Position numbers and translations under genes: made by a program. Shown here one piece after another: positions 36,014 through 53,177 of a DNA stretch of 64,000 bases (the first letter of the stretch is position 1; each line of letters opens with the position of its first letter). The stretch spans positions 930,001 through 994,000 of the forward strand of contig NZ_JAERQG010000001.1 in the NCBI RefSeq assembly GCF_016734805.1, given 5' to 3'. The stretch is from Marivirga atlantica. Lineage in GTDB: Bacteria; Bacteroidota; Bacteroidia; Cytophagales; Cyclobacteriaceae. The notes beneath the pieces were generated by a model. The model had not been told where the DNA came from and did no database searches. It worked only from the letters and a program-made list of their open reading frames with translations.

Positions 36014-36060
36014 TTCCAGACAATTACTAATTAGTGATTGTTAATTAATAATTAAGAGAT

Positions 36061-37365: not shown

Positions 37366-37434
37366 TACATGCGCTTTACTATGCGTATTTTTTTAAATAC
37401 ATTTAATGCTTGTAAAACCAAAATCTATTAAACT

Positions 37435-37710
37435 ATGAAAAAATTATTCACACTATTATTGCTAGCGGGTTTCTTTACAACCTTCGTAGCATGTGACAAC
37501 AAGAGCAACAAAGAAAAAGCTGAAGACAAAATGGAAGAAGCTGCTGATGACGTTCAAGACGGCATGGAAGATGCAGCTGAAGACGTAGAAGATGCAGTTG
37601 AAGAAACTGGTGAAGAAATCGAAGAAGGCGCTGAAGAAATGGGCGAAGAAATCGAAGAAGGTGCTGAGGAAGTAGAAGAAGGTGCTGAAGAAGTTAAAGA
37701 AGATATGTAA
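37435..37710 (+). CDS. Very acidic repetitive lipoprotein
   Basis: A 91-residue lipoprotein: signal KKLFTLLLLAGFFTTFVAC with Cys20, then a 72-residue mature part of which 35 residues are Glu or Asp (26 Glu, 9 Asp). The sequence repeats GEEIEEGAEEM-like units and should form a long amphipathic helix. Bacteroidota encode many such small Glu-rich lipoproteins; no function is known to me. Candidate roles are cation buffering or electrostatic contact at the envelope. A tandem repeat underlies the C-terminal half at DNA level. It ends at a strong shared terminator. Confidence 0.8.
   Translation: MKKLFTLLLLAGFFTTFVACDNKSNKEKAEDKMEEAADDVQDGMEDAAEDVEDAVEETGEEIEEGAEEMGEEIEEGAEEVEEGAEEVKEDM
37609..37674 (+). 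repeat. 33-base tandem repeat inside the acidic lipoprotein gene
   Basis: Two copies (37609-37641 and 37642-37674) encode GEEIEEGAEEM and GEEIEEGAEEV; a further partial copy follows. Copies differ at several bases, mostly synonymous. Confidence 0.7.
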
Positions 37711-37730
37711 TCTTTACTTTCTAGAAAATA

Positions 37731-37760
37731 AAAAAGCTGGACCAGACGGTTCAGCTTTTT
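37731..37760. terminator. Bidirectional terminator between the acidic lipoprotein and ilvA
   Basis: A 13-bp stem (37731-37743 with 37748-37760; arms begin AAAAAGCTG and end CAGCTTTTT, one G-U pair) around AGAC. The A and T runs allow termination from both sides. It ends directly at the ilvA stop codon. Confidence 0.85.
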
Positions 37761-39029
37761 TTATGTCAAAATATCGAGCAGTTCATGATTATTATTGATA
37801 TAGTCACCATAAAAGCCCAGAAATTTCATCCTTTGCAATAAGGGCTTATAATCATCTTTATGCTTTAACTCGATACCTACCACAGCGGAGCCTTTCTCTC
37901 GAGAATTCTTCTTGGTATACTCAAAATGGGTGATATCATCCGTTGCACCAAGTACCTCTACAACAAATTGCTTTAGCGCCCCTGCACGTTGAGGGAAATT
38001 CACTATGAAGTAATGCTTTAAGCCTTTATGAAGTAAAGCCCGCTCTTTTATTTCCTCAGTTCTGGTAATGTCATTATTACTGCCGCTAATAATACATACT
38101 ATATTTTTACCAGATATAGCTTCAGTATATTGTTCTAATACGGCAATTGATAAAGCCCCGGCAGGTTCCACCACGATAGCATCTTTGTTGTACATCTCAA
38201 GGATGATCTCACAGACTTTACCTTCAGCCACTGTAACTACTTCTTCTAAATTGTTACGACAAATTTCAAAGTTGAGATCACCTACTTTTTTTACAGCCGC
38301 TCCATCTACAAACTTCTCAATATGGGAAAGCTGCGTATTCTTACCTTTTTCGATAGAGTTTTTCATAGCAGGAGCGCCTTCCGGCTCCACTCCAATAATT
38401 TTAGTTTGCGGAGAGAGCAGTTTAAAAACAGAACTAACTCCAGCTGAAAGTCCACCGCCTCCCACTGGTAAAAATAAATAATCAATAGGCTTAATAGTTT
38501 GATTCAGGATTTCCAACCCTACTGTAGCCTGCCCTTCAATAACTTTTTCATCATCAAAAGGGTGAATGAATATACCTCCCTTTTCTTCACAGAAATGAAG
38601 GGCTTCATTATAAGAGTCATCGAAGGTGTCACCTACTAAAATAATATCTACAAACTCATCGCCAAACATGGCTACCTGCTCCACCTTCTGCTTTGGGGTT
38701 GGCGCAGGCATAAAAATAGTTCCTTTAACCTTTAACAATTGACAAGAATAGGCCACACCTTGGGCATGATTTCCTGCACTTGCACAAACAATTCCCTTTG
38801 TAAAATCATCTTCAGTTAAGCTGCTTATTTTATTATAAGCACCACGGATTTTGTAAGATCTCACCAACTGTAGATCTTCTCTTTTGAAGGAAATGTTTGC
38901 CTGATAATGTTTACTTAAGCGCAAGTTTTTAGTAAGTGGGGTGAGCGTACTCACTCCCTCTAGTTTCTTTGCTGCGGCTTTTACATTATCCAGCGTAGGT
39001 TTAAAATAGGTTGCTGAATCAGTTGGCAT
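37761..39029 (-). CDS. ilvA: Threonine dehydratase (biosynthetic)
   Basis: Deaminates threonine to 2-oxobutanoate, the committed step of isoleucine synthesis, using PLP. The PLP lysine is in VRSYKIRGAYN, followed by AGNHAQGVAYS and the phosphate-binding loop PVGGGGLSAGV. The C-terminal region (about 330-422, HYFIVNFPQRAGALKQF) is a single ACT-like regulatory domain. The 422-residue length matches the B. subtilis-type enzyme rather than the 514-residue, two-ACT E. coli form. It is the last gene of the leu-ilv run, four bases after ilvC. Confidence 0.95.
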   Translation of the reverse strand: MPTDSATYFKPTLDNVKAAAKKLEGVSTLTPLTKNLRLSKHYQANISFKREDLQLVRSYKIRGAYNKISSLTEDDFTKGIVCASAGNHAQGVAYSCQLLKVKGTIFMPAPTPKQKVEQVAMFGDEFVDIILVGDTFDDSYNEALHFCEEKGGIFIHPFDDEKVIEGQATVGLEILNQTIKPIDYLFLPVGGGGLSAGVSSVFKLLSPQTKIIGVEPEGAPAMKNSIEKGKNTQLSHIEKFVDGAAVKKVGDLNFEICRNNLEEVVTVAEGKVCEIILEMYNKDAIVVEPAGALSIAVLEQYTEAISGKNIVCIISGSNNDITRTEEIKERALLHKGLKHYFIVNFPQRAGALKQFVVEVLGATDDITHFEYTKKNSREKGSAVVGIELKHKDDYKPLLQRMKFLGFYGDYINNNHELLDILT

Positions 39030-39033
39030 TTTG

Positions 39034-40080
39034 CTATGCGTTTTCCGGTCTCAACTTACGAACTGCAGCACCAGCCTGCCATAATTCTGAATTTCTTAGC
39101 TCATCAAGTTCCTTTTCCAACTCTTTTCTATAATCAGCTTTTTCGTTAGCTGTAATGGTGAGTCTGGCTTCATTGCCGGTTTCAACACTTTCGTAAAGCT
39201 CTTCGAATACGGGTTTTACAGCATCTCTGAATTTTTTCCACCAATCTAATGCTCCACGTTGGGCAGTAGTTGAGCAGTTGGCATACATCCAGTCCATACC
39301 ATTTTCAGCCACTAATGGATATAGCGATTGAGTAGCTTCCTCTACCGTTTCGTTAAAAGCTTCAGAAGGAGAATGTCCTTTTGATCTTAGTAAATCGTAC
39401 TGTGCGGCAAATAATCCTTGAATGGCACCCATTAGGCTTCCTCTTTCACCTGTTAAATCACTGTAAACCTCTTTCTTGAAATTGGTTTCAAACAAATAGC
39501 CGGAGCCAACACCAATGCCAAGCGCTACACATCTGTCGTAGGCTTTACCAGTGGCATCCTGATGGATGGCATAACTGGAGTTAAGTCCCCTGCCAGCTAC
39601 AAAAAGCCTTCTTAAACTAGTGCCTGATCCTTTAGGAGCTACTAAAATTACATCAACATCTTTAGGTGGTTTAATGCCAGTTTGGTCGGAATAGGTGATG
39701 CCGAAACCGTGAGAAAAGTAAAGTGCTTTGCCTGGTGTAAGGTGCTTTTTAACCATTTCCCATTGGGCGATTTGACCAGCATCTGATAATAAATATTGTA
39801 AGATGGTTCCCTTTTCTGCGGCTTCTTCCAACTCAAAAAGTGTTTCGCCAGGAACCCAGCCATCCGCAACCGCTTTATCCCAGCTGCTTGAGCCTTTACG
39901 CTGACCTACAATTACAGGTATGCCATTATCTTTTAGGTTGAGTGCCTGGCCTGGGCCTTGTACTCCATAGCCTAAAACGGCTACAACTTCATCTTTTAAA
40001 ACCTCCTGAGCCTTTTTAAGAGGAAATTCCTCTCGCGTGACTACATTTTCTTCTACTGATCCAAATTTTAGTTTTGCCAT
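39034..40080 (-). CDS. ilvC: Ketol-acid reductoisomerase
   Basis: Isomerises and reduces acetolactate or acetohydroxybutyrate with NAD(P)H and Mg2+, step two of Val/Ile synthesis. The 348-residue protein has the Rossmann fingerprint AVLGYGVQGPGQALNLKDNG with nearby QRKGSSSW cofactor-selecting loop, and the acidic metal-binding residues in SDLTGERGSLMG and later helices. The size fits the short class I type. It is separated from ilvN by a 120-base AT-rich spacer with repeats, the longest gap within the ilv part of the cluster, and is tightly followed by ilvA. Confidence 0.95.
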   Translation of the reverse strand: MAKLKFGSVEENVVTREEFPLKKAQEVLKDEVVAVLGYGVQGPGQALNLKDNGIPVIVGQRKGSSSWDKAVADGWVPGETLFELEEAAEKGTILQYLLSDAGQIAQWEMVKKHLTPGKALYFSHGFGITYSDQTGIKPPKDVDVILVAPKGSGTSLRRLFVAGRGLNSSYAIHQDATGKAYDRCVALGIGVGSGYLFETNFKKEVYSDLTGERGSLMGAIQGLFAAQYDLLRSKGHSPSEAFNETVEEATQSLYPLVAENGMDWMYANCSTTAQRGALDWWKKFRDAVKPVFEELYESVETGNEARLTITANEKADYRKELEKELDELRNSELWQAGAAVRKLRPENA

Positions 40081-40100
40081 GTTGTTTAGATTTTTAGAGC

Positions 40101-40188
40101 CTAGAATCTAGGTTCTAGATTTGATGATTAATTATTTATTTTCTGTAATTTTATTTATGGGATAGTCTAGTTTCTATGTTCTAGACTC
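40101..40188. repeat. Imperfect repeat pair in the ilvN-ilvC spacer
   Basis: Two 22-base copies (40101-40122 and 40167-40188), both built round CTAG and GTTCTAGA, match at about 17 of 22 positions and are 66 bases apart. Each copy can also fold on itself (CTAGAATCTAG). This is the only spacer over 100 bases between ilv genes. Function unknown; could affect mRNA processing or stability. Confidence 0.5.
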
Positions 40189-40200
40189 TTTCATCTTATT

Positions 40201-40734
40201 TTAATGCTTCGAAGCTTTCTCCACTTCATGAAAATATTCCTGAAACTCCTTCATTGGTTTCGAAATGGAAATCCTTCCTGAGCGGACAAATTCCAAAATA
40301 CCATGCGGTTTGAGTTCTTCAAAAAGTGCCTGTGTTTCTTCTTTGAAGCCAGTTTTCTCAATAATGGTGAACTCTGGCTCGACAGCTAAAAGCCTTGCGT
40401 GATGTTGCCTAACAATTTTTTCTACTTCTTTACTTTCTGAAAGAACAGTAGTGGGCATTTTGTAAAGTGCCATTTCTTGAAAAACAATGTTCTCGTTTGG
40501 GTGATAAAAGGCTTTGAAAACGTCTATTTGCTTTTCAATTTGCTTAATAACATTCTTCACCTGCCATTCCTCTTCCGTTACCACAATTGTATATCGGTGA
40601 ATGCCATGAACCTCACTTTCAGAAGCTGTTATGCTTTCAATATTGATATGCCTACGTGTGAAAATGATGGTTACCCGATGGAGCAAACCGATCAGGTTTT
40701 CTGTATAAATCGATATGGTGAATTGTTTCTTCAT
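40201..40734 (-). CDS. ilvN: Acetolactate synthase small (regulatory) subunit
   Basis: The regulatory partner of IlvB that senses branched-chain amino acids. The 177 residues start FTISIYTENLIGLLHRVTIIFTRRHINIESITA, an ACT domain with the expected valine-binding loop, followed by the C-terminal domain with EFTIIEKTGFKEETQALFEEL. Length fits the short IlvH type. It lies 18 bases after ilvB, which supports the pairing, and is followed by the 120-base spacer. Confidence 0.94.
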   Translation of the reverse strand: MKKQFTISIYTENLIGLLHRVTIIFTRRHINIESITASESEVHGIHRYTIVVTEEEWQVKNVIKQIEKQIDVFKAFYHPNENIVFQEMALYKMPTTVLSESKEVEKIVRQHHARLLAVEPEFTIIEKTGFKEETQALFEELKPHGILEFVRSGRISISKPMKEFQEYFHEVEKASKH

Positions 40735-40752
40735 TGCCTTAAATCATTAAGA

Positions 40753-42483
40753 TTATGCTAATCTGATTTCAGATACTGATGCACCTGTAGGAATCATCGG
40801 GAAAATATTGTTTTCCTTCCCTACCATCACTTCTAATAGGAAGCTGCCTTTATGTGCTAGGAATTCTTCAATTCCGTTTTTTAGTTCATCTCTTTTCTGA
40901 ACTTTCATGGAAGAAATGCCATAACCCTTGGCGATAGTCTGGAAATCAGGGTTGATCATGTCCACCGATGAATATCGTTTCTCGAAAAACATATCCTGCC
41001 ATTGCCTCACCATGCCTAAGTACTCATTATTTAGGATCAGGATTTTCACATCAATTTTTGTTTGGAAGATGGTGCCCAGTTCCTGAATGGTCATCTGAAA
41101 ACCGCCATCACCAATTACAGCAATTACCGTTTTATCAGGGGCTGCGAACTTAGCTCCTATTGCAGCAGGAAGGGCAAAACCCATAGTTCCTAATCCACCG
41201 GAGGTTACATTACTTCTCCATAATTGATAGTTGAAGTAGCGCTGTGCTACCATCTGATGCTGCCCAACATCGGTTACAATAATGGCATTTCCTTTGGTGA
41301 CTTCTGAAATATGTTTGATCACTTCACCCATGCTGATTTGCTTATCTGGGGCAGGGGAAAGTTCATCTTTAATCACCTTATCAACTTCTTGCTTGGTGAG
41401 TTTTTGAAATTCCTCCAACCAGGAAGTGTGCGCATTTCTTTTTACCTCATCAAGTAACAGCTTCAGTGAATGCTTGCAATTACCAATGAGCGCTACATCA
41501 GCAGGAATATTTTTATTTACCTCTGCAGGATCAATTTCCAGATGGATAACCTTAGCCTGCCTGGCATAACGGCGGGTATCGCCTGTTACTCTATCATCGA
41601 AGCGCATACCAATGGCTATCAAAACGTCACACTCGTTAGTTAATAGGTTTGGAGCGTAGTTGCCATGCATTCCCAACATGCCCACATTTAAAGGATGATC
41701 TGTGGCTAAAGCTGAAAGTCCCATGATTGTCCATGCTGCTGGAATGCCTGTTTTTTCCACAAATGCTTTAAATTCTTCTTTGGCTTCTGCCAGCAAAATA
41801 CCATGACCAAATAGTATTAGTGGTTTTTTAGCCTGGTTGATTAATGCTGCAGCCTCTTTTACCGCTTCTAAATTCACTTTAGGATGAGGTACATAACTTC
41901 TCACATTTACACATGGCTCATAATTGTACTCAAAAGTCTGGAATTGTGCATCTTTTGTGATATCGATTAGTACCGGGCCGGGCTTTCCACTTTTAGCTAC
42001 AAAAAAGGCCTTAGCCAGCGCTGCCGGTATTTCTTCAGCTTTGGTAATTTGAATATTCCATTTGGTGACAGGCATGGAAATACCTACTACATCGGTTTCT
42101 TGAAAAGCATCAGTGCCGATCATCTGGCTGGCCACCTGACCTGTGATGCAAACCATTGGGGTTGAATCTAATTGCGCATCGGCCATGCCGGTTATGAGGT
42201 TGGTTGCCCCAGGGCCTGAAGTTGCCAGGCAAACTCCCACCTTACCGGAGATACGGGCATAACCCTGTGCGGCATGTGTTGCACCTTGCTCATGCCTGGT
42301 CATGATATGTTTTATTTCTTTTTGAAAATCATATAAGGCATCATAAACCGGCATGATGGCACCTCCGGGATAGCCAAAAATGGTATCCACACCTTCTGCT
42401 AATAAACATTGGACCACGGCCTGGGCTCCTGTTAGTGTTAGCTTTTTAGTCATCTTCTTTTGTTGTGCCTTAGTTGATTCCAT
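40753..42483 (-). CDS. ilvB: Acetolactate synthase large (catalytic) subunit
   Basis: Condenses pyruvate with pyruvate or 2-oxobutanoate (TPP, FAD, Mg2+) to start Val and Ile synthesis. The 576 residues show the TPP-activating glutamate in MTRHEQGATHAAQGYAR, the PSGPGATNLITG-type block (here ATSGPGATNL), and the diphosphate motif VIGDGGFQMTIQELGT ... NNEYLGM. It lies two bases after ilvD and 18 before ilvN, so stoichiometric co-expression is likely. Confidence 0.96.
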   Translation of the reverse strand: MESTKAQQKKMTKKLTLTGAQAVVQCLLAEGVDTIFGYPGGAIMPVYDALYDFQKEIKHIMTRHEQGATHAAQGYARISGKVGVCLATSGPGATNLITGMADAQLDSTPMVCITGQVASQMIGTDAFQETDVVGISMPVTKWNIQITKAEEIPAALAKAFFVAKSGKPGPVLIDITKDAQFQTFEYNYEPCVNVRSYVPHPKVNLEAVKEAAALINQAKKPLILFGHGILLAEAKEEFKAFVEKTGIPAAWTIMGLSALATDHPLNVGMLGMHGNYAPNLLTNECDVLIAIGMRFDDRVTGDTRRYARQAKVIHLEIDPAEVNKNIPADVALIGNCKHSLKLLLDEVKRNAHTSWLEEFQKLTKQEVDKVIKDELSPAPDKQISMGEVIKHISEVTKGNAIIVTDVGQHQMVAQRYFNYQLWRSNVTSGGLGTMGFALPAAIGAKFAAPDKTVIAVIGDGGFQMTIQELGTIFQTKIDVKILILNNEYLGMVRQWQDMFFEKRYSSVDMINPDFQTIAKGYGISSMKVQKRDELKNGIEEFLAHKGSFLLEVMVGKENNIFPMIPTGASVSEIRLA

Positions 42484-42485
42484 AA

Positions 42486-44165
42486 TTATTGGTCGGTTAT
42501 GCAGCCTAATGAAGCTGATGAAACAAGTTTTGCATACTTTTTAAGTGTGCCTTTTAGTATTTTGCCTGTCTTTGGTTGAAAATTGGCTTTTCGCTTTTCA
42601 AACTCTTCTTCACTGATTTTTAGCGTGATGCTGTTGTTGATGGCATCGATAGTAATAGTGTCACCATCCTGAACCAGCGCTAATGGTCCACCATCTTGTG
42701 CCTCGGGTGAAATGTGGCCTACAACGAAACCATGTGTGCCTCCGGAGAATCGGCCGTCCGTAATGAGCGCTACTTTTTTACCTAAACCTGCACCCATTAT
42801 GGCTGAAGTAGGTTTTAACATCTCAGGCATGCCTGGTCCACCTTTTGGGCCCTCATAGCGAATGACCACCACATCACCTTCCTGGATTTCATTTTTAGCA
42901 ATAGCGTCATTGGCAATAAACTCACCATCATACACGCGTGCAGTACCTTCAAAGAATTCACCTTCTTTCCCCGTAATTTTTGCTACAGCACCTTCCGGAG
43001 CCAGATTTCCTTTAAGGATTCGCAAATGGCCTGAGTTTTTCAGTGGCTTATCTACCGGATGAATAATTTCCTGATTGTCATCTAGTGGAGAAATATTATC
43101 CAGGTTTTCGGCTAGTGTTTTTCCTGTAACAGTCATACAACTGCCGTCTAATAAGTCATGCTCCAACATGAGCTTCATTACTCCCGGTATGCCGCCTTGT
43201 AGGTGTAAATCTTCCATCAGGAATTTTCCACTTGGTTTTAAATCTGCCAGGTAAGGTGTTTTTGCACTGATTCTGGCGAAATCCTCCAGAGACAAATCAA
43301 TATCGAAAGCATGAGCCACTGCTAATAAGTGTAGTACAGCATTGGTTGATCCACCTAGCACGGTGATAAGTGCAATGGCATTTTCAAAAGAAGCTTTCGT
43401 AACAATTTTCTTAGGAGTCAGGTCATTCTCAATTAGTTGTTTTATAGCTTTGCCTGCTTCCACACATTCATTGATTTTTTCCTTGCTATTTGCAGGGTTT
43501 GATGCACCAAATGGTAAACACAACCCTAAAGCTTCAATTGCTGACGCCATCGTATTGGCTGTATACATGCCACCACATGCGCCAGGACCGGGACAAGCAT
43601 TTGCTACTACTCCTTTAAAATCTTCCTCAGAAATATCATTAGCGTGCTTTTTACCGAGGGCTTCAAAAGCAGAAACTACATCTAGTTTTTCACCTTTGTA
43701 ACAGCCGGGAGCTATTGTTCCACCGTAAACAATAATACCGGGTCGGTCGAGTCTGCCCAATGCAATTAGTGCTCCAGGCATATTTTTGTCACAACCTGTA
43801 ACCGCAATTAAGCCATCATAAGCCTGTGCGTTTACAACTGTCTCCATTGAATCAGCAATGATGTCACGAGAAGGTAGGCTGTATCGCATACCGGGTGTTC
43901 CCATTGAAATACCATCACTCACACCAATGGTGTTAAATACCAATCCATTCCAATGATGCTGCCCTACACCTTTTTTGACTTGCTGAGCCAAATCGTTTAA
44001 GTGCATATTGCATGGGTTGCCTTCAAAACCTGTACTGGCAATTCCTACAAGCGGCTTTTTTAGATCATCATCAGATAAACCGATGGCATGAAGCATGGCC
44101 TGAGCTGCCGGCTGCGTAGGATCCTGTGTTACAACCTGACTATATTTATTGAGTAGCTCGGACAT
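42486..44165 (-). CDS. ilvD: Dihydroxy-acid dehydratase
   Basis: Dehydrates the dihydroxy acids to the Val and Ile keto acids using an Fe-S cluster. The 559-residue protein contains the cluster cysteines in [10 protein letters not shown] and [19 protein letters not shown], and the late [12 protein letters not shown] block. Spacing is three bases after ilvE and two before ilvB, so it sits inside the operon. Confidence 0.96.
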
Positions 44166-44168
44166 CTT

Positions 44169-45059
44169 TTATATGATGGTTTGGTTTTGTAAATCGTTAA
44201 ATAATACCTTCTGGCGATACATCTGATAAAGATTGTAGCCTAATGAATCTTCCCATTGCAAGGGGTAAATAGTTTTGTCAACGCTGCCAATTGGAGCAAT
44301 TTCAGCTGCGGTACCCGTGAAAAAAGCAGTGTCTGCATCAAGCAATTGTGATTTCGAAATAGGCTTTTCTGTAACTCTGATGCCCAAATCTCTGGATAAC
44401 TCTATCACTGTTGATCGGGTAATGCCTGGCAAAATATTTCCTCTTGATGGCGTAAAAAGCTCACCATTCTTTTCAATAAATATATTCGCTCCTGAGCCTT
44501 CGGACACATAGCCATCATGATCTAGAAGAATGGCTTCATCATAACCTGTTTTCTTTGCTTCTGTGGTGGCAAGGATGGAATTCGTATAATGACCTACTAC
44601 CTTGGCTTCCACATGTTGAGCAGCAGGATGAATCCTTTGATAGGAAGATATCTTTGCTTTTACAGGTTGCGTACCCAGATATTTCTCCCATTTCCATGCG
44701 CAGATGAACACGTTTACTTCATCTACAGGCTCGAGTGACATATTTGCACCTAAATAAACTAATGGCCTGATATAGGCATCAGTCAGGTTGTTTCTGTCCA
44801 ATAATTCATAGGTGATGCTTACGAGTTCTTCTACCGAATAAGGTAGGTCGATGTGCATGAGTTGGGCAGAATACAATAGACGCTGATAATGCTCATGCGC
44901 TTTAAATACATTGAAGCCTAATTCATTTTTGTAGGCTCTAATGCCTTCAAAAACTCCATTTCCATAATGCATGGTTTGGCTGTATAAACTTGCGTTGGCT
45001 TCTGATGCCGGAAGCCACTCTCCGTTAAGGAATACGAGTGTGTTGTCTTTGTAGTACAT
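44169..45059 (-). CDS. ilvE: Branched-chain amino acid aminotransferase
   Basis: Final step of Ile, Val and Leu synthesis, PLP-dependent fold type IV. From the ATG at 45059 (MYYKDNTLVFLNGEW) the protein has 296 residues. The PLP lysine is in EAKVVGHYTNSIL and the family block DGYVSEGSGANIFIE follows. A TTG at 45086 would add nine residues but starts inside the U-tract of the terminator; the ATG is preferred. It is the first ilv gene behind a leader peptide and attenuator. Confidence 0.94.
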   Translation of the reverse strand: MYYKDNTLVFLNGEWLPASEANASLYSQTMHYGNGVFEGIRAYKNELGFNVFKAHEHYQRLLYSAQLMHIDLPYSVEELVSITYELLDRNNLTDAYIRPLVYLGANMSLEPVDEVNVFICAWKWEKYLGTQPVKAKISSYQRIHPAAQHVEAKVVGHYTNSILATTEAKKTGYDEAILLDHDGYVSEGSGANIFIEKNGELFTPSRGNILPGITRSTVIELSRDLGIRVTEKPISKSQLLDADTAFFTGTAAEIAPIGSVDKTIYPLQWEDSLGYNLYQMYRQKVLFNDLQNQTII

Positions 45060-45087
45060 ATTGTTCAGGTTTTGATGATCCCTCAAT

Positions 45088-45120
45088 AAAAAACGCCATC
45101 TTTTTTAGGGATGGCGTTTT
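45088..45120 (-). terminator. Intrinsic terminator of the ilv attenuator
   Basis: On the minus strand AAAACGCCATC (45120-45110) pairs with GATGGCGTTTT (45100-45090), an 11-bp stem with a CCTAAAAAA loop, followed by a run of U's to 45088. It stops only 28 bases before the ilvE ATG, too close for another promoter to fit between. That position marks it as a leader terminator of ilvE and not merely the end of leuB. Confidence 0.88.
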
Positions 45121-45166
45121 ATCAATTTATGAATATGATAATCCGTCATCCTTTGTGTAAAAGGAT
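45109..45166 (-). promoter_or_regulatory. Transcription attenuator: competing RNA helices ahead of ilvE
   Basis: Segment 1 ATCCTTT (45166-45160) pairs with segment 2 AAAGGAT (45154-45148) round a TACAC loop. Segment 2 can instead pair with segment 3 (GGATGACG at 45151-45144 with CGCCATCC at 45116-45109, one mismatch). Segment 3 is the 5' arm of the terminator. Segment 1 covers the Ile-Leu-Leu codons of the leader peptide, so a ribosome stalled there frees segment 2 to form the antiterminator. The pairings are read from sequence; the regulatory logic is that of known amino acid attenuators. Confidence 0.85.
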
Positions 45167-45208
45167 AATGACTTTAATAATTTCAATATTTAAGACCGAT
45201 AGATTCAT
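45146..45208 (-). CDS. Branched-chain amino acid leader peptide (20 codons)
   Basis: The frame starts at ATG 45208, five bases after the leuB stop, and ends with TGA at 45146. Eleven of the 20 residues are Ile, Leu or Val, including the run IEIIKVIILL. The stop codon lies within segment 2 of the attenuator and the I-L-L codons within segment 1. This is the classic layout of the E. coli ilvGMEDA and ilvBN leaders, here between leuB and ilvE. The peptide itself probably has no function; its translation is the sensor. Confidence 0.87.
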   Translation of the reverse strand: MNLSVLNIEIIKVIILLHKG

Positions 45209-45213
45209 TTTGC

Positions 45214-46302
45214 TTAAGCACCTACGCTTGCTTTTTCTTTAATCAATTCTGCTATTCTGTCTCCAACTTCTGTTGTGGTTTTAGCTTTGCTTTCAGCTAC
45301 TATGTCCGGAGTTCCTAATTCTTCTTCTAGTGCATTAAAAACTGCATTTTCGATTGCCTCAGCCTCCTCATTCATGTCAAAAGCATAATTGAGTAGCATG
45401 GCGGCTGATAAAATTGCCCCGATTGGATTCGCTATATTTTGACCTGCCGCTTCAGGATAAGAACCATGAATAGGCTCAAATAAGCTACTGCTTGTACCCA
45501 AAGAGGCAGATGGCAACATACCCAATGAGCCTGCAATAACAGAAGCTTCATCAGTAATGATATCACCAAACATATTCTCGGTAAGCACCACATCAAAATG
45601 CTTTGGATTTTGTATGATTTTCATGGCTGCATTATCCACAAACATGAAATCAAGTGCCACATCAGGATAATCCTGTGCTATGTCTTTTACTGTTTCTCTC
45701 CACAACCTGGAAGTAGCCAGTACATTGGCCTTGTCAACCAAAGTGAGTTTTTTATTTCTAAGCTGAGCTGCCTCAAATGCTTTTCGTGATATTTGATTAA
45801 TTTCTTTCTTGGAATAAACACAGCTGTCAAAAGCAGTTTCTCCATTTTCGCTTCTTCCCCTAGGTTCACCAAAGTAAATACCTCCTGTAAGTTCTCTGAA
45901 TACTACAAAGTCAGTTCCTTTGATGTTAGCTTCTTTCAGAGGTGAGATGTGTAAAAGCTTATCATAACTTTTAACAGGACGCACATTAGCGAAAAGTCCT
46001 AAATTTTTACGCATACGCAGTAAGCCTTGCTCAGGTCTTACTTTGGCTGAAGGATCATTATCGTATTTAGGATCACCGATAGCACCAAAAAGTATTGCAT
46101 CGGCTTCTTTACAAATTTTTTCAGTTGCTGCCGGAAAAGGATCACCCGTTTCATCAATGGCCGCAGCACCAATTAATGCTTCCTGATAATTGAACTGATG
46201 TCCGAAACTATCAGCAACCGCATTTAAGCATTTTACTGCTTCTTTGGTTACTTCTGGGCCTATGCCGTCACCTGCTAATATGGCTATTTTCTTTTTGCTC
46301 AT
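45214..46302 (-). CDS. leuB: 3-isopropylmalate dehydrogenase
   Basis: Oxidises and decarboxylates 3-isopropylmalate to the leucine keto acid with NAD+. The 362-residue protein starts KIAILAGDGIGPEVTKEAVK and shows the LeuB substrate block LLRMRKNLGLFANVRPVK, the metal-binding aspartates in NMFGDIITDEAS, and HGSYPEAAGQNIANP for NAD+. It abuts leuD with no gap. The attenuator begins right after its stop, so transcripts reading into ilvE must pass it. Confidence 0.96.
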   Translation of the reverse strand: MSKKKIAILAGDGIGPEVTKEAVKCLNAVADSFGHQFNYQEALIGAAAIDETGDPFPAATEKICKEADAILFGAIGDPKYDNDPSAKVRPEQGLLRMRKNLGLFANVRPVKSYDKLLHISPLKEANIKGTDFVVFRELTGGIYFGEPRGRSENGETAFDSCVYSKKEINQISRKAFEAAQLRNKKLTLVDKANVLATSRLWRETVKDIAQDYPDVALDFMFVDNAAMKIIQNPKHFDVVLTENMFGDIITDEASVIAGSLGMLPSASLGTSSSLFEPIHGSYPEAAGQNIANPIGAILSAAMLLNYAFDMNEEAEAIENAVFNALEEELGTPDIVAESKAKTTTEVGDRIAELIKEKASVGA

Positions 46303-46911
46303 TTATGCGCTTACTGTTTTTGTATTATTTTTTCTTTTCTCGAATTGTTCTATTTCCTCCTTTTTGTTCAGCAAGAAATCGATGTCGTCAAATCCGTTAA
46401 GAAGGCAATATTTTTTATAGCTATTGATCTCAAAGGTTTCTTTTAAACCAATGCTTTCTATTTTAATGTATTGTTCCTGAAGGTTTACCTCTATTTCAAC
46501 ATTGCTATCTTCCTTAATAGCAGCAAATATTTTCTTCAGATTTTCTTCAGATACTTGTACAGGAAGCAAGCCATTATTCAAGGCGTTATTCTTAAAGATG
46601 TCAGCAAAGAAACTTGAAACCACTACCTTGATGCCATAGTCATATAGTGCCCATGCAGCATGCTCTCTGCTAGAACCACAACCAAAATTTCTACCGGCTA
46701 CCAATATTTGGTCTTCAATATCTGGCTGATTGAGTACAAAATCTGGATTAGGCTGGTCGCCTTCTACATATCTCCAATCCCTGAATAGGTTATCACCAAA
46801 GCCTTCTCTGCTAACCGCTTTGAGGAAGCGTGCAGGAATAATTTGGTCTGTATCGATATCTTCTACGGGAAGTGGAATGCCTTTGCTATAAAGTGTATTG
46901 AATTTCTCCAT
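46303..46911 (-). CDS. leuD: 3-isopropylmalate dehydratase small subunit
   Basis: The small subunit of the isopropylmalate isomerase. The 202 residues include [31 protein letters not shown] and [22 protein letters not shown], all standard LeuD blocks. It has no Fe-S cluster of its own and works with LeuC, encoded four bases upstream. The last residues ([20 protein letters not shown]) are a charged tail. Confidence 0.96.
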
Positions 46912-46915
46912 CTGC

Positions 46916-48307
46916 TTAGTTCTTTAAAAATTCACGTACATCAGTAATTTTCCCTGTTAGTGCGGCTGCAGCTGCAGTCAATGGACTGGCGAGCATTGTT
47001 CTTGCACCAGGACCTTGACGACCTTCGAAATTTCTGTTAGAAGTAGAAACACAATATTTTCCTTTAGGTACTTTATCTTCATTCATGCCTAAGCAAGCGG
47101 AACAACCCGGCTGGCGTAATTCGAAACCGGCTTCTTTTAAGATGACGTCCAATCCTTCGGCTTTAGCTTGTTCTTCTACCTGCTTTGAGCCTGGAACTAT
47201 CATGGCCTGAACGTGATCAGCTTTTTTCTTACCTTTTACCATTTCAGCTACCATGCGCAAATCTTCAATGCGTGAGTTGGTGCAGCTGCCAATGAATACG
47301 TAATCCACCTGATGCCCGATAAGCTGGCTACCACCTTGTAAATCCATGTATTGTAAAGATTTTGCCAATCCGCTACTTGCATCATTGGTTTCAGGGATAA
47401 GCTCTGCAATGCCAATGCCCATACCAGGATTGGTGCCATAGGTAATCATTGGGCTAATTTCTTCGGCTTTGAAGTAATATTCAGTATCAAAAACAGCATC
47501 TTCATCAGTTTTCAATTCCTGCCATTCCTTTAATTTAGCCGCCCAATCATCTCCTATAGGAGCAAATGTGCGTCCTTTGATATAGTCAAAAGTAGTCTGA
47601 TCTGGCGCTATCAAACCACCGCGAGCACCCATTTCAATACTCATATTGCATATGGTCATGCGTGCTTCCATGCTTAATTCTTCTATGGCAGATCCGCAGA
47701 ATTCAATGAAATGACCTGTGCCACCGCTGGCAGAAAGCTTGGAGATGATGTATAGTACAATATCTTTAGAAACAACTCCTTTATTGAGTTTACCATCAAC
47801 CTGAATTTTCATGGTTTTAGGCTTGCGCTGCAATACACATTGGGTGGCCATTACCTGCTCTACTTCACTGGTGCCAATTCCGAAAGCAATGTTGCCGAAA
47901 GCACCATGAGTGGAGGTATGACTATCACCACAAACAATGGTCATTCCTGGCTGTGTAATCCCTAGTTCAGGGCCAATGACGTGCACTATGCCCTGATAGG
48001 GATGTCCCAAACCATATAATTCAACTCCAAATTCTTTACAATTTTTGATCAGCGTATCCACCTGATGCTTTGAAAGTGCATCTTTTATAGGGAGATGCTG
48101 ATTTTCAGTAGGTACATTATGATCAGCAGTGGCAATAGTTTGCTCTGGTCTGAACAAACCTATGCCTCTATTTTTTAAGCCTGCGAATGCTTGTGGACTG
48201 GTCACCTCATGAATGAAATGCCTGTCAATATACACCACCTGTGGACCATCCTTAACGGCATGCACCACATGACTATCCCAAATTTTATCGAATAAAGTCT
48301 TTCCCAT
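46916..48307 (-). CDS. leuC: 3-isopropylmalate dehydratase large subunit
   Basis: Aconitase-fold subunit carrying the catalytic [4Fe-4S] cluster. The 463 residues include [28 protein letters not shown] (one ligand Cys) and [15 protein letters not shown] (two ligand Cys). Length and motifs are those of the bacterial two-subunit enzyme. It follows leuA by 12 bases. Confidence 0.96.
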
Positions 48308-48319
48308 CTGCTACTTCAA

Positions 48320-49483
48320 CTATTTTGAGAATACGTGATTATAATTTTTTACAAGGTGCTTGAGGTCGTCATCTTCCACCACATTGATTTCATCGGCCAT
48401 TGTTAAAAATTGCTGGTAAGTTTCTTCCAATTCATCTTTGGAAAGATTTACACCTATTTCAGCAAGGCGGAAATTCAGAGCAGCTCTACCACTTCGTGCA
48501 GTAAGGATAATGCTTGATTTGTTTACACCCACTTCGTAAGGATCAATGATTTCGTAGTTGTCTTTATTCTTGATTACTCCATCCTGATGGATGCCTGATG
48601 AATGTGAAAAAGCATTGGCACCAACTATAGCTTTATTAGGCTGAACAGGCATGTGCATAGTTTCTGAAACCATGCGGCTTATAGGATATAAAAGTTTTGA
48701 ATCGATTCCTGTTTCAAAACCCATCCATTCGTGTTTTTTCATGATCATTACTACTTCTTCAAGAGAAGTGTTTCCTGCGCGCTCACCTATACCGTTAATG
48801 GTACATTCAATCTGGCCTGCTCCATTTTTTATAGCAGCGATACTGTTAGCTGTAGCCAAACCTAAATCGTTATGACAATGTGCCGAAATGATGGCCTTAT
48901 CGATGTCTTTTACATTATCTTTTAAATACTTGATTTTTGCACCGTAAACTTCAGGCATGCAAAAACCAGTAGTATCAGGAATGTTTACCACTGTGGCACC
49001 GGCAGCAATGGCTGCTTCTACCACTTGCGCTAAGAATTCATTATCAGTTCTGCCTGCATCTTCTGCATAGAATTCTACATCATCCACAAAGTTTTTGGCA
49101 TATGTTACGCACTCTTTTGCTTTGGCAATTACTTCCTCATGCGTCATTTTAAGCTTTGTGAACACGTGTTGGTCAGATGTTCCTAAGCCTGTATGAATTC
49201 TTGGTCTTGCTGCTCCTTTGAGTGCTTCAGCTGCACATTCGATATCTTTTTTAACCGCTCTTGACAAGCCACAGATGGAAGCATCTTTAATTTCTTTAGC
49301 GAGTAACCTCACTGACTGGAAATCACCAGGACTTGAAATGGGAAAGCCGGCTTCGATAACATCTACACCAAGGGCTTCCAGGTGTTTGGCTAATTCAAGC
49401 TTCTTTGATTTGGTGAGTCCACAGCCCGGGACTTGCTCTCCATCTCTTAAAGTAGTATCAAAAATTTGAATGCGTTGCTGCAT
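48320..49483 (-). CDS. leuA: 2-isopropylmalate synthase, short form without regulatory domain
   Basis: Condenses acetyl-CoA with 2-oxoisovalerate, the first step of leucine synthesis. The catalytic TIM barrel is complete: [15 protein letters not shown] near the N-terminus, [13 protein letters not shown], and the HCHNDLGLA metal-binding motif, plus [16 protein letters not shown] in the linker. At 387 residues it stops after the first linker, whereas E. coli LeuA (523) and M. tuberculosis LeuA carry a C-terminal LeuA_dimer domain that binds leucine. Direct feedback inhibition is therefore doubtful. Related enzymes (citramalate, homocitrate synthases) cannot be wholly excluded, but the leuCDB neighbours favour LeuA. 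Confidence 0.93.
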
Positions 49484-49656
49484 GTCAATTGCTTTAATGG
49501 TTTGTTTGATGATTGATGCTTAAGCATCTGATAACTCTAAATTAGAGGGAATGCACAGGCTGTTGAATACCAGATATTTAAGTTGTTACGATTTCTAATT
49601 GGATAAAATCATTAGATTTACCATGAAATAGGTTGTTTTAATTATTTTTCATTACG

Positions 49657-51207
49657 ATGTCTAACCGTCACTCTGACCAATTATTTGTGCTGATAAAATC
49701 GCTTAAGCAAACTGAGAAGCGCTACTTTAATTTGTGGGTACAGAAAAACGGGGAATCGAATACTAAGTATTTTGAGCTTTTTGAACGGATAGCAAAACAA
49801 GATAGCTTTGATGATGAAGCTATTTTGAGAAAGTCAGAAAGTATAAAGGCCAGCCAGCTATCAAACTTAAAAGCACATCTTTATAAGCGCCTACTTCAGG
49901 CTTTGAGGCAGTTTGAGCAGGAAAAAACTGAGGAGATTCAATTGCGTGAGCAAATAGATTATGTGCAGGTTTTATACAACAGGGGTTTGTATAGGCAATG
50001 TGAAAACATGATTACGAAAGCTCATAAAAAGATTGAAAAAAGTGGTCATCTGGAGCTGAAGCTAGAATTACTCAAATGGGAAAAATTGGTACTGCGAAGA
50101 ACGCTAGGACAATCTTATCAGCAGAAGGTGCAGCGCATACTTAAGGAAGTTGCTGATACCAATGAAAAAATTAACCTCATTAATAGTGTAACAAATTTGG
50201 CTGTAGAACTTAACGCCATTTATCTAAAGTGGGGTTATATCAGAAATGACAAGCAGCTCAAAAGCGTTGTAAAACTGTTTAATAGGCAACTTCCAAAATA
50301 TAATGAAGCGGAACTTTCACTTTATGAAAAACTGAATCTTTACCGCACACTAGCCAACTATTATAGCTTTCTGGAAGAAAAAAGGGATGCTAATTTATAT
50401 GCCGGTAAGTGGCTTAAGCTCTATGATAAAAATCCTGATCTGGTATTGAGTCAGATGGATGATTACTTGCAAGCCATCAACCAATTAATGATTGTACAAT
50501 ATAAAATGTATGCTTATGATGCGTTTATGCAAAATAGCAGACGACTGCGAGACATTGGCAGACAGCACAGAAAACATAAAAACTTAAACATTAGGAACAG
50601 GATAGAGAAATACATTTATGTGCATGAATTTAACAGGATTTTCATGTTGGGTGATTTTGACATTGGGGTACGACTTCTGAGCAAAATAGGCGATGACCTG
50701 GAAGCTTTCATAGAACGCTCTGATGAGCACTCACGTGTGATTCTCTATTACAAAATAGCTTGTTTGTATGTTGGTAATAGTCAATATAGTGAGGCATTGG
50801 AATGGTTGAATAGAGTGCAGGATGAAACGCAGGAAGATTTACGAGAAGATGTGTTATCATTTGCCAGAATATTGAGCTTGATAGCCCATTACGAATTAGG
50901 CAACACTGAGGTGATGGAGTATTACATACGTTCCACTTATCGCTTCTTATTGAAGAAGGGTGACCTTAATCAATACCAGAAGTATATTTTAGCCTTTTTG
51001 AGAAAGCTAGCTTCAGGTTTCAAACAAGAGGATTTACTTCCGGAATTTAAGTTGTTGTTAGAAAAGCTTAAGCCACTTCAAGAGATAAGATATGAGCAAA
51101 GGGCTTTTATCTACTTCGATATTATTTCATGGCTGGAAAGCAAGCTTGAGAATAAGCAAGTAGGCGAGGTGATCAGGGAAAAGGCTTTAAGAAAGATAAA
51201 TAAATAG
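49657..51207 (+). CDS. Large helical protein of unknown function (TPR-like)
   Basis: A 516-residue soluble protein, almost entirely helical, basic and rich in Lys/Arg/Leu/Tyr. It begins SNRHSDQLFVLIKSLKQTEKRYFNLWVQKNGES, then has repeats such as LYNRGLYRQCENMITKAHKKIEKSG and SQYSEALEWLNRVQDETQEDL that resemble irregular TPRs. No enzymatic motif or signal peptide. I do not recognise a named family. It is divergent from leuA and stands just ahead of the REP/RAYT region. Its role may be scaffolding. Confidence 0.75.
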   Translation: MSNRHSDQLFVLIKSLKQTEKRYFNLWVQKNGESNTKYFELFERIAKQDSFDDEAILRKSESIKASQLSNLKAHLYKRLLQALRQFEQEKTEEIQLREQIDYVQVLYNRGLYRQCENMITKAHKKIEKSGHLELKLELLKWEKLVLRRTLGQSYQQKVQRILKEVADTNEKINLINSVTNLAVELNAIYLKWGYIRNDKQLKSVVKLFNRQLPKYNEAELSLYEKLNLYRTLANYYSFLEEKRDANLYAGKWLKLYDKNPDLVLSQMDDYLQAINQLMIVQYKMYAYDAFMQNSRRLRDIGRQHRKHKNLNIRNRIEKYIYVHEFNRIFMLGDFDIGVRLLSKIGDDLEAFIERSDEHSRVILYYKIACLYVGNSQYSEALEWLNRVQDETQEDLREDVLSFARILSLIAHYELGNTEVMEYYIRSTYRFLLKKGDLNQYQKYILAFLRKLASGFKQEDLLPEFKLLLEKLKPLQEIRYEQRAFIYFDIISWLESKLENKQVGEVIREKALRKINK

Positions 51208-51242
51208 TTGTGAGAAAAATTTTAAATATAGTTCTGCTCCCG

Positions 51243-51266
51243 AATGTTGGTGTTATCACCAACATT
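51243..51266. repeat. REP-like palindrome, copy 1
   Basis: A perfect 10-base-arm palindrome around TTAT (core TTGGTGTTATCACCAA), identical over 24 bases to copy 4 at 53127-53150. It lies 26 bases upstream of the RAYT gene start. Confidence 0.82.
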
Positions 51267-51291
51267 TACACAAAAAATATTAGATTATTAA

Positions 51292-51831
51292 GTGGAAAAT
51301 AGATTAGATGAACATATAAAGATATGCTTTCTGACAGCGACCATATTTGAGTGGAAGCCTTTATTAAAACCAGATAAATATAAAAAGCTTATTGTTGAAA
51401 GCTTTGATTTTTTAGTTAGTAATAATCGAGTTAAAATTTATGCTTTTGTCATAATGCCTAATCACATTCATCTACTTCTAAAAGTAATTCCACCTTGGAA
51501 GTTAGCTGATGTACAAAGGGATTTCATGAAGTTTACAGGGCAGCAGATCAAGTTTGATTTAATAAAACATCATCCGAAGGTATTGGAGTATTTTAGAGTT
51601 GACTTAAGAGATAGGCAGTATCAGTTTTGGCAAAGAAGCTCACTTGCTAAATTATTGGATGATAGAAAAATTATTGAAGAAAAGTTAGACTACATTCATA
51701 ATAACCCTGTTCAAAAGAAATGGCTATTGGCAGATAGTCCGGTTGAATACCATTTTTCTTCATACAGATTTTATGAAGAAGGTGAATCTGATTTTCAATT
51801 TTTGACCCATTATATGGAGTATTTTGAATAA
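51292..51831 (+). CDS. REP-associated tyrosine transposase (RAYT, Y1 HUH family)
   Basis: A 179-residue Y1 transposase-fold protein. The HUH metal-binding motif is in VIMPNHIHLLLK (H58, H60) and the catalytic tyrosine is most likely Y134 in KLDYIHNNPVQKKWLLADSPVEYHFSSYRFYEEGE, a block typical of RAYTs (TnpA_REP) rather than IS200/IS605 TnpA. Start is GTG at 51292. RAYTs are domesticated single-copy enzymes that cut and move REP palindromes; here four matching palindromes lie within 2 kb. No second transposon ORF is present. Confidence 0.9.
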   Translation: MENRLDEHIKICFLTATIFEWKPLLKPDKYKKLIVESFDFLVSNNRVKIYAFVIMPNHIHLLLKVIPPWKLADVQRDFMKFTGQQIKFDLIKHHPKVLEYFRVDLRDRQYQFWQRSSLAKLLDDRKIIEEKLDYIHNNPVQKKWLLADSPVEYHFSSYRFYEEGESDFQFLTHYMEYFE

Positions 51832-51836
51832 TATGG

Positions 51837-51860
51837 CTTGTTGGTGATAACACCAACAAG
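51837..51860. repeat. REP-like palindrome, copy 2 (inverted)
   Basis: Perfect palindrome with core TTGGTGATAACACCAA, the reverse complement of copy 1's core, and outer arms CTTG/CAAG. It begins six bases after the RAYT stop codon. Confidence 0.82.
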
Positions 51861-51908
51861 AGGAGGGAGAATAAACAAGTAGTGGAGGTGAAAAGGAAAA
51901 ATGCACTA

Positions 51909-53066
51909 ATGAGACTAAAAATAGTTTTGAGAATTAGTATTAAAATAACCACTATAATTTCTTTTCTGGTACTTCTAGTTAATTGCCAGCAAAAAAATGA
52001 AGTAGGAAAAGAAAAATTGGATTTTTCAGTAGCTCATCATATTATGAAAGATTCCGTCAACCAAAACATAGCTGGGCGTCTGGAAAATTTCCTAATTACA
52101 AAAAATCAAAGCCCTACTGATAACCAATATTGGTTACCTTCAGATTTTGACGAATACCTTTTTCCATATGTCGATTTATATAAAATTGAAAAAGATAGCT
52201 CAGCTAATTACAAAGTTGAATTATTAGAAATCATAGATATCGAACTTGATTCGGTAAAGCTGGTCAAGTTTGCTTGCTTTAAAGAAATGAACGATGTAAC
52301 CTCTTTAATGAATATTTATAATGTATTAGCGGTTAAATCAGAGGGTCAATATTTTTTCAGTCGATCACTTCAATATAACACGAGGAATTGGACAACATAC
52401 CAGCATGAAGATTTTACTTATGTAGTTTCTCCCGAGAGGAATTTTAATATTGAGGAAGCAAAGAAGCAACAAGTTTTCAAGGATTCACTGATGCAGTTTT
52501 TCGGGCTTGACATCCCACCTATTACTTACTATTCCTGCATTTCGCCAGTAGAACTATTTGAAATTAAAGGATATGATTATGTAGCAAATATGTACATGAG
52601 CAAAAGTGGTGGACTTGCTGAGGTATTCTCAGGAATTATTTTTTCAGGAAATGATTCTGAACGATATGACCATGAATTGGTCCATTTCTTTACCAGAGCA
52701 TTATTTCAGCATGATATGATTCCCCTATTTCATGAAGGGATAGCCACTTATTTAGGAGGTAGTGGAGATTATTCCTTTACCAAGCTGAAAGTGAAGCTTA
52801 GGCAGTACTTAAAAAATCATCCAAATATGGAATTGGCAACTATGATCAAACCTTACGACAGAAAGCATCTTTTAGAAGATCAATTAGATGCAGTCTATGT
52901 CGTTGGTGCACTTGTTTGTGAATATGTAGTGAATGAATACGGGAAGGAACAACTAATAAGTTTGCTCGATACTTCAGGTAATCAGGATTTATGGATAGCA
53001 CTTGAAAAGGTGAATTTGAATAAGGAAAATTTCTCTAAAAAGCTCTTGCTCTACTTAAATAGTTAA
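51909..53066 (+). CDS. Lipoprotein with zinc-metallopeptidase-like domain
   Basis: From ATG 51909 the 385-residue protein has a lipoprotein signal (IKITTIISFLVLLVNC) and a C-terminal half carrying HELVH (H255, E256, H259) followed 16 residues later by HEGIATYLGG (H275, E276), the pattern of a gluzincin of the peptidase MA-like kind. GTG codons at 51882 and 51888 would lengthen the N-terminus but place extra basic residues ahead of the signal. The first half has no recognised domain. Probably a periplasmic or surface hydrolase. It lies between REP copies 2 and 3, so it may be an accessory passenger of that region. Confidence 0.78.
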   Translation: MRLKIVLRISIKITTIISFLVLLVNCQQKNEVGKEKLDFSVAHHIMKDSVNQNIAGRLENFLITKNQSPTDNQYWLPSDFDEYLFPYVDLYKIEKDSSANYKVELLEIIDIELDSVKLVKFACFKEMNDVTSLMNIYNVLAVKSEGQYFFSRSLQYNTRNWTTYQHEDFTYVVSPERNFNIEEAKKQQVFKDSLMQFFGLDIPPITYYSCISPVELFEIKGYDYVANMYMSKSGGLAEVFSGIIFSGNDSERYDHELVHFFTRALFQHDMIPLFHEGIATYLGGSGDYSFTKLKVKLRQYLKNHPNMELATMIKPYDRKHLLEDQLDAVYVVGALVCEYVVNEYGKEQLISLLDTSGNQDLWIALEKVNLNKENFSKKLLLYLNS

Positions 53067-53069
53067 AAG

Positions 53070-53090
53070 CTTGTTGGTGATAACAACAAG
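53070..53090. repeat. REP-like palindrome, copy 3 (degenerate)
   Basis: CTTGTTGGTGATAACAACAAG matches copy 2 except for a 3-base loss in the right arm. It lies just after the metallopeptidase gene and has the same orientation as copy 2. Confidence 0.7.
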
Positions 53091-53126
53091 TGGATTTATG
53101 GTATAACTGGTTGTAAAATGCTTCCC

Positions 53127-53150
53127 AATGTTGGTGTTATCACCAACATT
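53127..53150. repeat. REP-like palindrome, copy 4
   Basis: Identical to copy 1 over the 24-base palindrome (core TTGGTGTTATCACCAA), same orientation. It lies 28 bases beyond the thrC stop, where it could also act as an mRNA end structure. Confidence 0.82.
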
Positions 53151-53177
53151 TTACTCTCAAACATTCCAAAACAACAC

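Follow-up and report, generated by a model that had tools for sequence, protein, structure and literature searches.

The window analyzed here is a stretch of 64,000 nucleotides from Marivirga atlantica, the source assembly of which totals 4.19 Mb. Pfam assignments on the minus strand of the window give the gene order leuA-leuC-leuD-leuB-spacer-ilvE-ilvD-ilvB-ilvN-ilvC-ilvA. The genes leuA, leuC, and leuD occupy positions 46303..49483. They are followed by leuB (45214..46302 in the list of open reading frames; 362 amino acids; Pfam PF00180, E=5e-131), which ends in a TAA stop codon at 45216-45214. The branched-chain aminotransferase gene ilvE (44169..45059; Pfam PF01063) is the first gene on the other side of the spacer, and ilvD, ilvB, ilvN, ilvC, and ilvA take up positions 37761..44165. 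LeuA (48320-49483) is short, at 387 amino acids; Pfam assigned it catalytic and post-catalytic domains, and at E ≤ 0.001 detected no C-terminal regulatory domain.

The original prediction placed a leader-peptide attenuator in the leuB-ilvE spacer, consisting of a 20-codon open reading frame (ORF) just past the leuB stop and of RNA segments able to fold in 2 alternative ways. Both components were recovered on the minus strand. The leader ORF, MNLSVLNIEIIKVIILLHKG (45146..45208, with ATG at 45208 and TGA at 45146), has 20 codons, 11 of them for Ile, Leu, or Val, and its ATG lies 5 nt past the leuB stop. Segment 1 (45160..45173, minus strand) was thought to cover Ile-Leu-Leu codons; folding and stall simulation placed it instead over codons 13-16, making Val13-Ile14-Ile15-Leu16 the control codons. 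Segment 2 (45136..45154, minus strand) includes the leader stop codon and pairs either with segment 1 or, as GGAUG.CG..UUAUCA, with segment 3. The 3' half of the latter helix, the antiterminator, is UGAUAA..CG.CAUCC (45109..45124, minus strand) and overlaps the 5' arm of an intrinsic terminator formed by segments 3 and 4 and a U-tract (45085..45119, minus strand). The terminator has a 10-bp stem, its hairpin extends from 45119 to 45091, and the distance from the stem to the ilvE ATG (45059) is 31 nt. The 1:2 hairpin alone was calculated at -10.4 kcal/mol and the 2:3 antiterminator at -14.1 kcal/mol; the latter pairs before segment 4 is made, and an inner UUAUCA/UGAUAA helix makes it longer than had been claimed. 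Folding of the spacer region compared to shuffled sequences gave z = -3.3 and was equalled by 2 of 200 shuffles.

General searches returned little at this site. A simple sigma-70/terminator scan, which was limited to loops of 8 nt and used a promoter type other than that of Bacteroidota, missed the terminator because its 9-nt loop exceeds the limit. Comparison of window positions 36000-54000 to Rfam 15 at E values up to 10 yielded 10 chance-level matches and no T-box or amino-acid leader family, and the spacer used as a DNA query against its own genome matched itself only.

Conservation was assessed by means of a purpose-built detector, designed after inspection of 22 upstream regions. Of 390 Cytophagales genomes searched for IlvE, 79 had a match at E ≤ 1e-70, indicating that the window-type IlvE is present in a minority of Cytophagales; together with nine further close relatives, these genomes gave 88 ilvE loci. 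The detector calls for an ORF that begins with ATG, has 10-45 codons with at least 6 Ile/Leu/Val in ten, and stops 10-45 nt before a terminator, as well as for a duplex of -10 kcal/mol or better between the stop region and the terminator arm. A loose setting accepted 77 of the 88 loci, including the implausible-looking L101, L121, and L123, and for that reason counts were made with a strict setting, the limits of which were fixed after the loose results on all 88 loci were known. Under the strict setting, leader ORF, terminator, and antiterminator were conserved before ilvE in 72 of the 88 loci, spanning 28 of 35 genera. None of the 440 dinucleotide shuffles and none of the 88 reverse complements used as controls passed this setting, and 342 other same-strand windows gave a single hit. 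The 16 loci that were missed are L066, L068, L082, L099, L101, L109, L110, L121, L123, L124, L129, L130, L137, L138, L139, and L145, among which L099 is a fused leu-ilv locus. On both strands of the 64-kb window, the detector, at a slightly different setting, returned the leu-ilv site alone. Upstream of leuA, none of 18 regions passed the strict setting, the weak candidates L063 and L141 falling short.

A collection of named loci, which partly overlaps the order set (L164 is the contig of L102), extended these results beyond Cytophagales. Twenty-eight of 39 loci taken as Bacteroidota passed the strict detector, including loci from Flavobacteriales, Sphingobacteriales, and Chitinophagales, compared to 0 of 27 others. 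The 39 come from the 41 loci L152-L192, without L176 (almost no upstream sequence) and L190 (start unmatched), and the 27 come from the 39 loci L193-L231. Loci were assigned to Bacteroidota by record title and by the similarity of their IlvE; L153 and L164 are titled as members of other phyla, apparently through binning errors. Tandem double ilv attenuators, each with its own leader and terminator, were seen before ilvE in L079, L083, L096, L097, L118, and L119, and in L156, L159, and L177 of the named set.

Covariation of the antiterminator was assessed by exchanging terminator arms among genera. Earlier versions of this swap test were discarded because their candidates had been preselected for strong 2:3 pairing, which introduced a bias, and the test was rerun on 74 of the 88 loci, from 28 genera, whose candidates were picked irrespective of pairing, using one leader per genus. 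Segment 2 paired with its own terminator arm at -13.5 to -14.2 kcal/mol and with the arms of other genera at -8.9 to -9.4 kcal/mol (five draws), and 0 of 2000 permutations reached the pairing of the native combinations in each of 20 draws. A control segment 45 nt further upstream had no pairing effect (1124-1855 of 2000 permutations, ten draws). Covariation was weaker for helix 1:2, for which a median of 8.5 and a maximum of 45 of 2000 permutations reached the native value. The MAFFT alignment (A3) was too divergent for column-wise counts of base pairs; by eye, a compensatory change was found in the inner antiterminator helix between the Marivirga genomes G003 and G004.

The Ile, Leu, and Val codons peaked at a set distance before segment 2. 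In 75 leaders selected for Ile/Leu/Val content and 2:3 pairing, and not for codon register, the fraction of these residues was 0.76-0.89 at 7-11 codons and 0.83-0.95 at 4-6 codons before segment 2, then fell to 0.51 at 3 codons and 0.15 at 1-2 codons. Position 5 was Ile in 55% and Val in 33% of leaders, and position 6 was Val in 55%. The peak at 4-6 codons falls at the spacing at which a stalled ribosome would free segment 2. The conserved leader ORF and terminator, along with the covarying antiterminator, support the proposal that the site follows the logic of enterobacterial attenuators; a lack of such conservation was one of the outcomes that the original prediction had named as refuting it.

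A ribosome footprint model of the window leader gave a sequestered fraction of segment 3 of 0.72 with the A site at codons 13-16, compared to 0.02 with the ribosome at the stop codon. Values of 0.55-0.71 were also obtained while the ribosome occupied codons 2-11, which means that in this model hairpin 1:2 by itself would not exclude the antiterminator; segments 2 and 3 paired even with segment 1 free and the -10.4 kcal/mol hairpin available. At equilibrium, the terminator prevailed in the complete window RNA wherever the ribosome was stalled (P 0.85-0.93), and the same preference was found in 5 of 6 simulated leaders, L142 being the exception. Attenuators are usually assumed to be under kinetic control, and these equilibrium values mean that the decision to antiterminate must be kinetic here.

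The location of the attenuator inside a gene cluster, which had been called unusual, turned out to be shared. A leuB or leuA gene stands directly upstream of ilvE in 18 of the 88 loci, in five genera, and an attenuator passing the strict setting separates the two in 17 of the 18, with L099 as a weaker candidate. The same order was found in named Chitinophagales and Fulvivirga loci. An attenuator between leu and ilv genes thus recurs, both in four further Cytophagales genera of the set and elsewhere in Bacteroidota, and is not peculiar to this genome.

What sets Marivirga apart is the junction of the leader with leuB. Counted from the leuB stop, the leader ATG lies at +5 nt in the window, at -1 nt in four species, and at -4 nt in another; these make up 6 of the 7 Marivirga genomes that carry the operon, and the five species with overlapping codons join stop and start as TAATG, TGATG, or ATGATG. 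Since the leader start abuts or overlaps the leuB stop, the leader is probably translated by ribosomes that re-initiate after leuB. The seventh species, M. tractuosa (G005), has a detached leader, +67 nt from the leuB stop. In 10 other fused loci, the leader begins 77-178 nt after the leu gene, and among the 72 loci, only the 6 coupled Marivirga have a leader 30 nt or less from the stop codon of a preceding ORF (same strand, at least 100 codons). A tree of five concatenated proteins placed M. tractuosa among the coupled species, with 38-79% support at the inner nodes and 100 for a clade of five species. With inner nodes this weak, a plausible but unproven history is that the promoter was lost within the genus and later replaced in M. 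tractuosa. In M. tractuosa (L143), a second ORF, MKKMNKIVWFIQLIDSIFVIKYKTCTKQALP, was seen by eye to overlap the leuB stop and to end inside the leader in another frame. In three of the 10 genomes of the genus (G001, G006, and G009), leuB was without a match at E ≤ 1e-60 and all IlvE-like matches were distant; these are possibly branched-chain auxotrophs, and G001 is only 86% complete.

The absence of a promoter between leuB and the leader had been proposed as well. According to the available text of one study, promoters of Bacteroidota follow the consensus TAnnTTTG with an upstream TTTG; for F. johnsoniae, the text states that no such upstream motif turned up (PMC7366714). We scored promoter-like sites as TTG plus TAnnTTTG (maximum 9/9) at 5-40 nt before the leader, a range picked after the results of a 200-nt scan were known. 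Scores of at least 8/9 occurred in 26 of 55 ilvE-first loci, compared to 3.9% of 2982 control positions. Such scores were also reached by 6 of the 10 other fused loci (a single genus contributes four of these) and by 7 of 9 named fused loci, or 13 of 19 when the two were pooled; the 9 were scored out of 13 named fused loci, leaving out L190 as well as L158, L187, and L192, which have no strict attenuator. In contrast, all six coupled Marivirga loci scored 6/9, the commonest control value, while M. tractuosa has a 9/9 site in this range. The contrast was weaker in the 200-nt scan, in which 9 of 17 fused loci and 32 of 55 ilvE-first loci scored at least 8/9.

Within the window, the best promoter-like match in the leuB-ilvE spacer was 7/9 and fell within the leader itself. 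No match above 6/9 begins in the 31-nt gap between terminator and ilvE, which is too short for a promoter of this type, and ilvE must therefore be reached by read-through. Judged by motif, the classical succession of promoter and leader is absent, as leuB adjoins the leader and the best score before it is 6/9. The claim of a missing promoter thus stood by motif and by contrast with relatives, subject to one caveat, a 9/9 promoter-like site inside leuB, TTG-N19-TATGTTTG (45567..45596, minus strand), which lies over the sequence encoding FDVVLTENMFG.

These results allow more than one scenario. The attenuator could be real but be served by a promoter of its own, such as the leuB-internal site (45596-45567), in which case leuACDB and the ilv genes would mostly be separate units. 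A 9/9 site inside leuB is found in 5 of 7 Marivirga, the window included, at 379-388 nt before the leader (450 nt in M. tractuosa), promoter-like sites close to the leader are common among the other fused loci, and the 200-nt scan located 8/9 sites 115 and 179 nt upstream in the coupled loci L062 and L064. However, the leuB site matches, by eye, the coding motif FDVV-TENMFG, does not reach 9/9 in two coupled species (G004 and G008), and is located approximately 390 nt upstream, whereas the strong sites in fused relatives end 15-21 nt before the leader. Sites scoring 9/9 occur inside 6 of the 20 leuB genes in the set, and the one in Marivirga is probably a by-product of the coding motif. We regard a separate promoter as unlikely.

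Alternatively, the attenuator could be a relic left by fusion to leuB, with the trailing leuB ribosome blocking the terminator and the ilv genes being read through constitutively. The available text of PMC4824070 describes repression by trailing ribosomes of E. coli terminators that lie just behind genes. This effect gives the coupled form mechanistic interest and underlies the relic scenario, and the coupled state does appear to be derived. Arguing against a relic, all six coupled species retain a leader, terminator, and antiterminator that satisfy the strict detector, a compensatory change distinguishes the inner antiterminator helix of G003 from that of G004, and the terminator stem begins approximately 94 nt past the leuB stop. 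A relic is accordingly improbable in our estimation. A constitutive leu terminator accompanied by an incidental Ile/Leu/Val-rich ORF would account for a good intrinsic terminator directly after leuB, but it would leave only 31 nt without a promoter motif before ilvE, and ORF, codon register, and covarying antiterminator are kept even where no leu gene precedes; this explanation is largely refuted and was rejected as very improbable. A functional hydrophobic micropeptide with secondary RNA structures would suit the hydrophobic composition of leader peptides, but was rejected as the least credible, since peptide sequences vary from genus to genus in all but the Ile/Leu/Val content, which keeps a constant distance from segment 2.

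Taken together, these data make it highly probable that the spacer holds a ribosome-mediated transcription attenuator of ilvEDBNCA, positioned in line inside a leuACDB-ilvEDBNCA operon. In the predicted regulation, transcripts begun upstream of leuA would run through leuB into the leader, there being presumably no promoter between leuA and ilvE. When charged tRNA-Ile, -Val, and -Leu are ample, the leader ribosome would reach the stop codon and cover segment 2, the 3:4 terminator would form, and termination at approximately 45088 would leave a leuACDB message. A stall at codons 13-16 would instead allow segments 2 and 3 to pair and polymerase to continue into ilvEDBNCA. The genes leuA, leuC, and leuD are predicted to be transcribed whatever the state of the attenuator, and with 0 of 18 regions upstream of leuA having an attenuator, transcription of leuACDB as a whole should not depend on one. 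The ilvEDBNCA block should be read solely when charging of Ile-, Val-, or Leu-tRNA is short. The separate second toll that the original prediction imposed on leuA-derived transcripts before the ilv block would follow from this arrangement. Because no regulatory domain was detected in LeuA, a limiting supply of the ilv-derived leucine precursor may also restrain the leucine branch.

The position of the leader suggests an in-line attenuator that is fed by both transcription and translation of leuB. In Marivirga, a promoter belonging to the leader itself appears to have been lost, and we give even chances to the scenario in which a 5' attenuator became in-line and coupled in this genus, its promoter lost, its start fused to the leuB stop, and the ribosome finishing leuB turned into the sensor. 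If the coupled reading is true, expression of the ilv block needs translation of leuB as well as a shortage of Ile, Val, or Leu, and leuACDB escapes the attenuator. M. tractuosa, with its detached leader and promoter-like site, is a natural counter-example inside the genus. Such an attenuator could leave the first half of an operon always on and make the second conditional, and the coupled form raises the question of whether attenuation can use a re-initiating ribosome as its sensor. Near relatives with coupled and promoter-bearing versions provide a natural comparison.

Leader-peptide attenuation is indicated as common before window-type ilvE in Bacteroidota, and the literature matches listed contained little about it. 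Among these matches, most subscription journals being outside their coverage, none described an ilv attenuator of Cytophagales, and none an attenuation leader that is coupled to a structural gene preceding it. A related case in the phylum is Flavobacterium psychrophilum, in which attenuation by leader peptides was inferred in 5' regions of amino-acid operons; the available text differs from the present case in referring to 5' regions and does not mention ilv, internal position, or coupling (PMC9723704). Leader-like small ORFs are described in B. thetaiotaomicron in the available text of PMC7366714, and that of PMC4833913 cites a 2010 comparative study by Lopatovskaya and colleagues. Outside the phylum, Corynebacterium ilvBNC is likewise a non-Proteobacterial case of branched-chain control, by leader-peptide attenuation or an upstream ORF; as far as the available texts go, it differs in that the control region is upstream of ilvBNC and the gene order is another (PMC11857589, PMC10272879).

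Other leaders were noted in the M. atlantica genome. Upstream of a chorismate-binding (trpE-like) gene, contig C6 carries two tandem Trp leaders, MTLTNTNNNWWWASKF and MIIQNKNIWWWLYNSSQTG (L241:630-680 and L241:750-809), with a terminator behind each of them, and leader-peptide attenuation is therefore probably in wider use in this genome. A His-rich short ORF ending in HAAHPFHHSSF was seen by eye just upstream of hisG (L239, approximately 1107-1226); the detector gave no terminator-linked leader in that region.

In enterobacteria, ilvGMEDA, ilvBN, and leuABCD are controlled by leader-peptide attenuators that are 5' leaders behind the operon promoter. The Marivirga element resembles them in its Ile/Leu/Val-rich leader, its segments 1-4, and a ribosome position that would pick terminator or antiterminator, but its leader is an internal cistron after leuB. 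The pheM-pheST attenuator of E. coli is a parallel in location. It lies within the thrS-infC-rpmI-rplT cluster, and like the Marivirga element, it is a leader-peptide attenuator between cluster genes that is reached by upstream transcription; unlike in Marivirga, pheST has its own promoter and the pheM leader is not known to be coupled to the stop of the upstream gene. In the fused clusters of other Bacteroidota (L073, L075, L081, L086, L149, L152, L170, and others), leu genes, an attenuator of the same kind, and ilvE follow one another. These differ from the coupled Marivirga loci in their detached leaders and, for the most part, in a strong promoter-like site before the leader. The mechanism itself is classical, and it is the internal, promoterless, stop-start-coupled form that we predict to be new.
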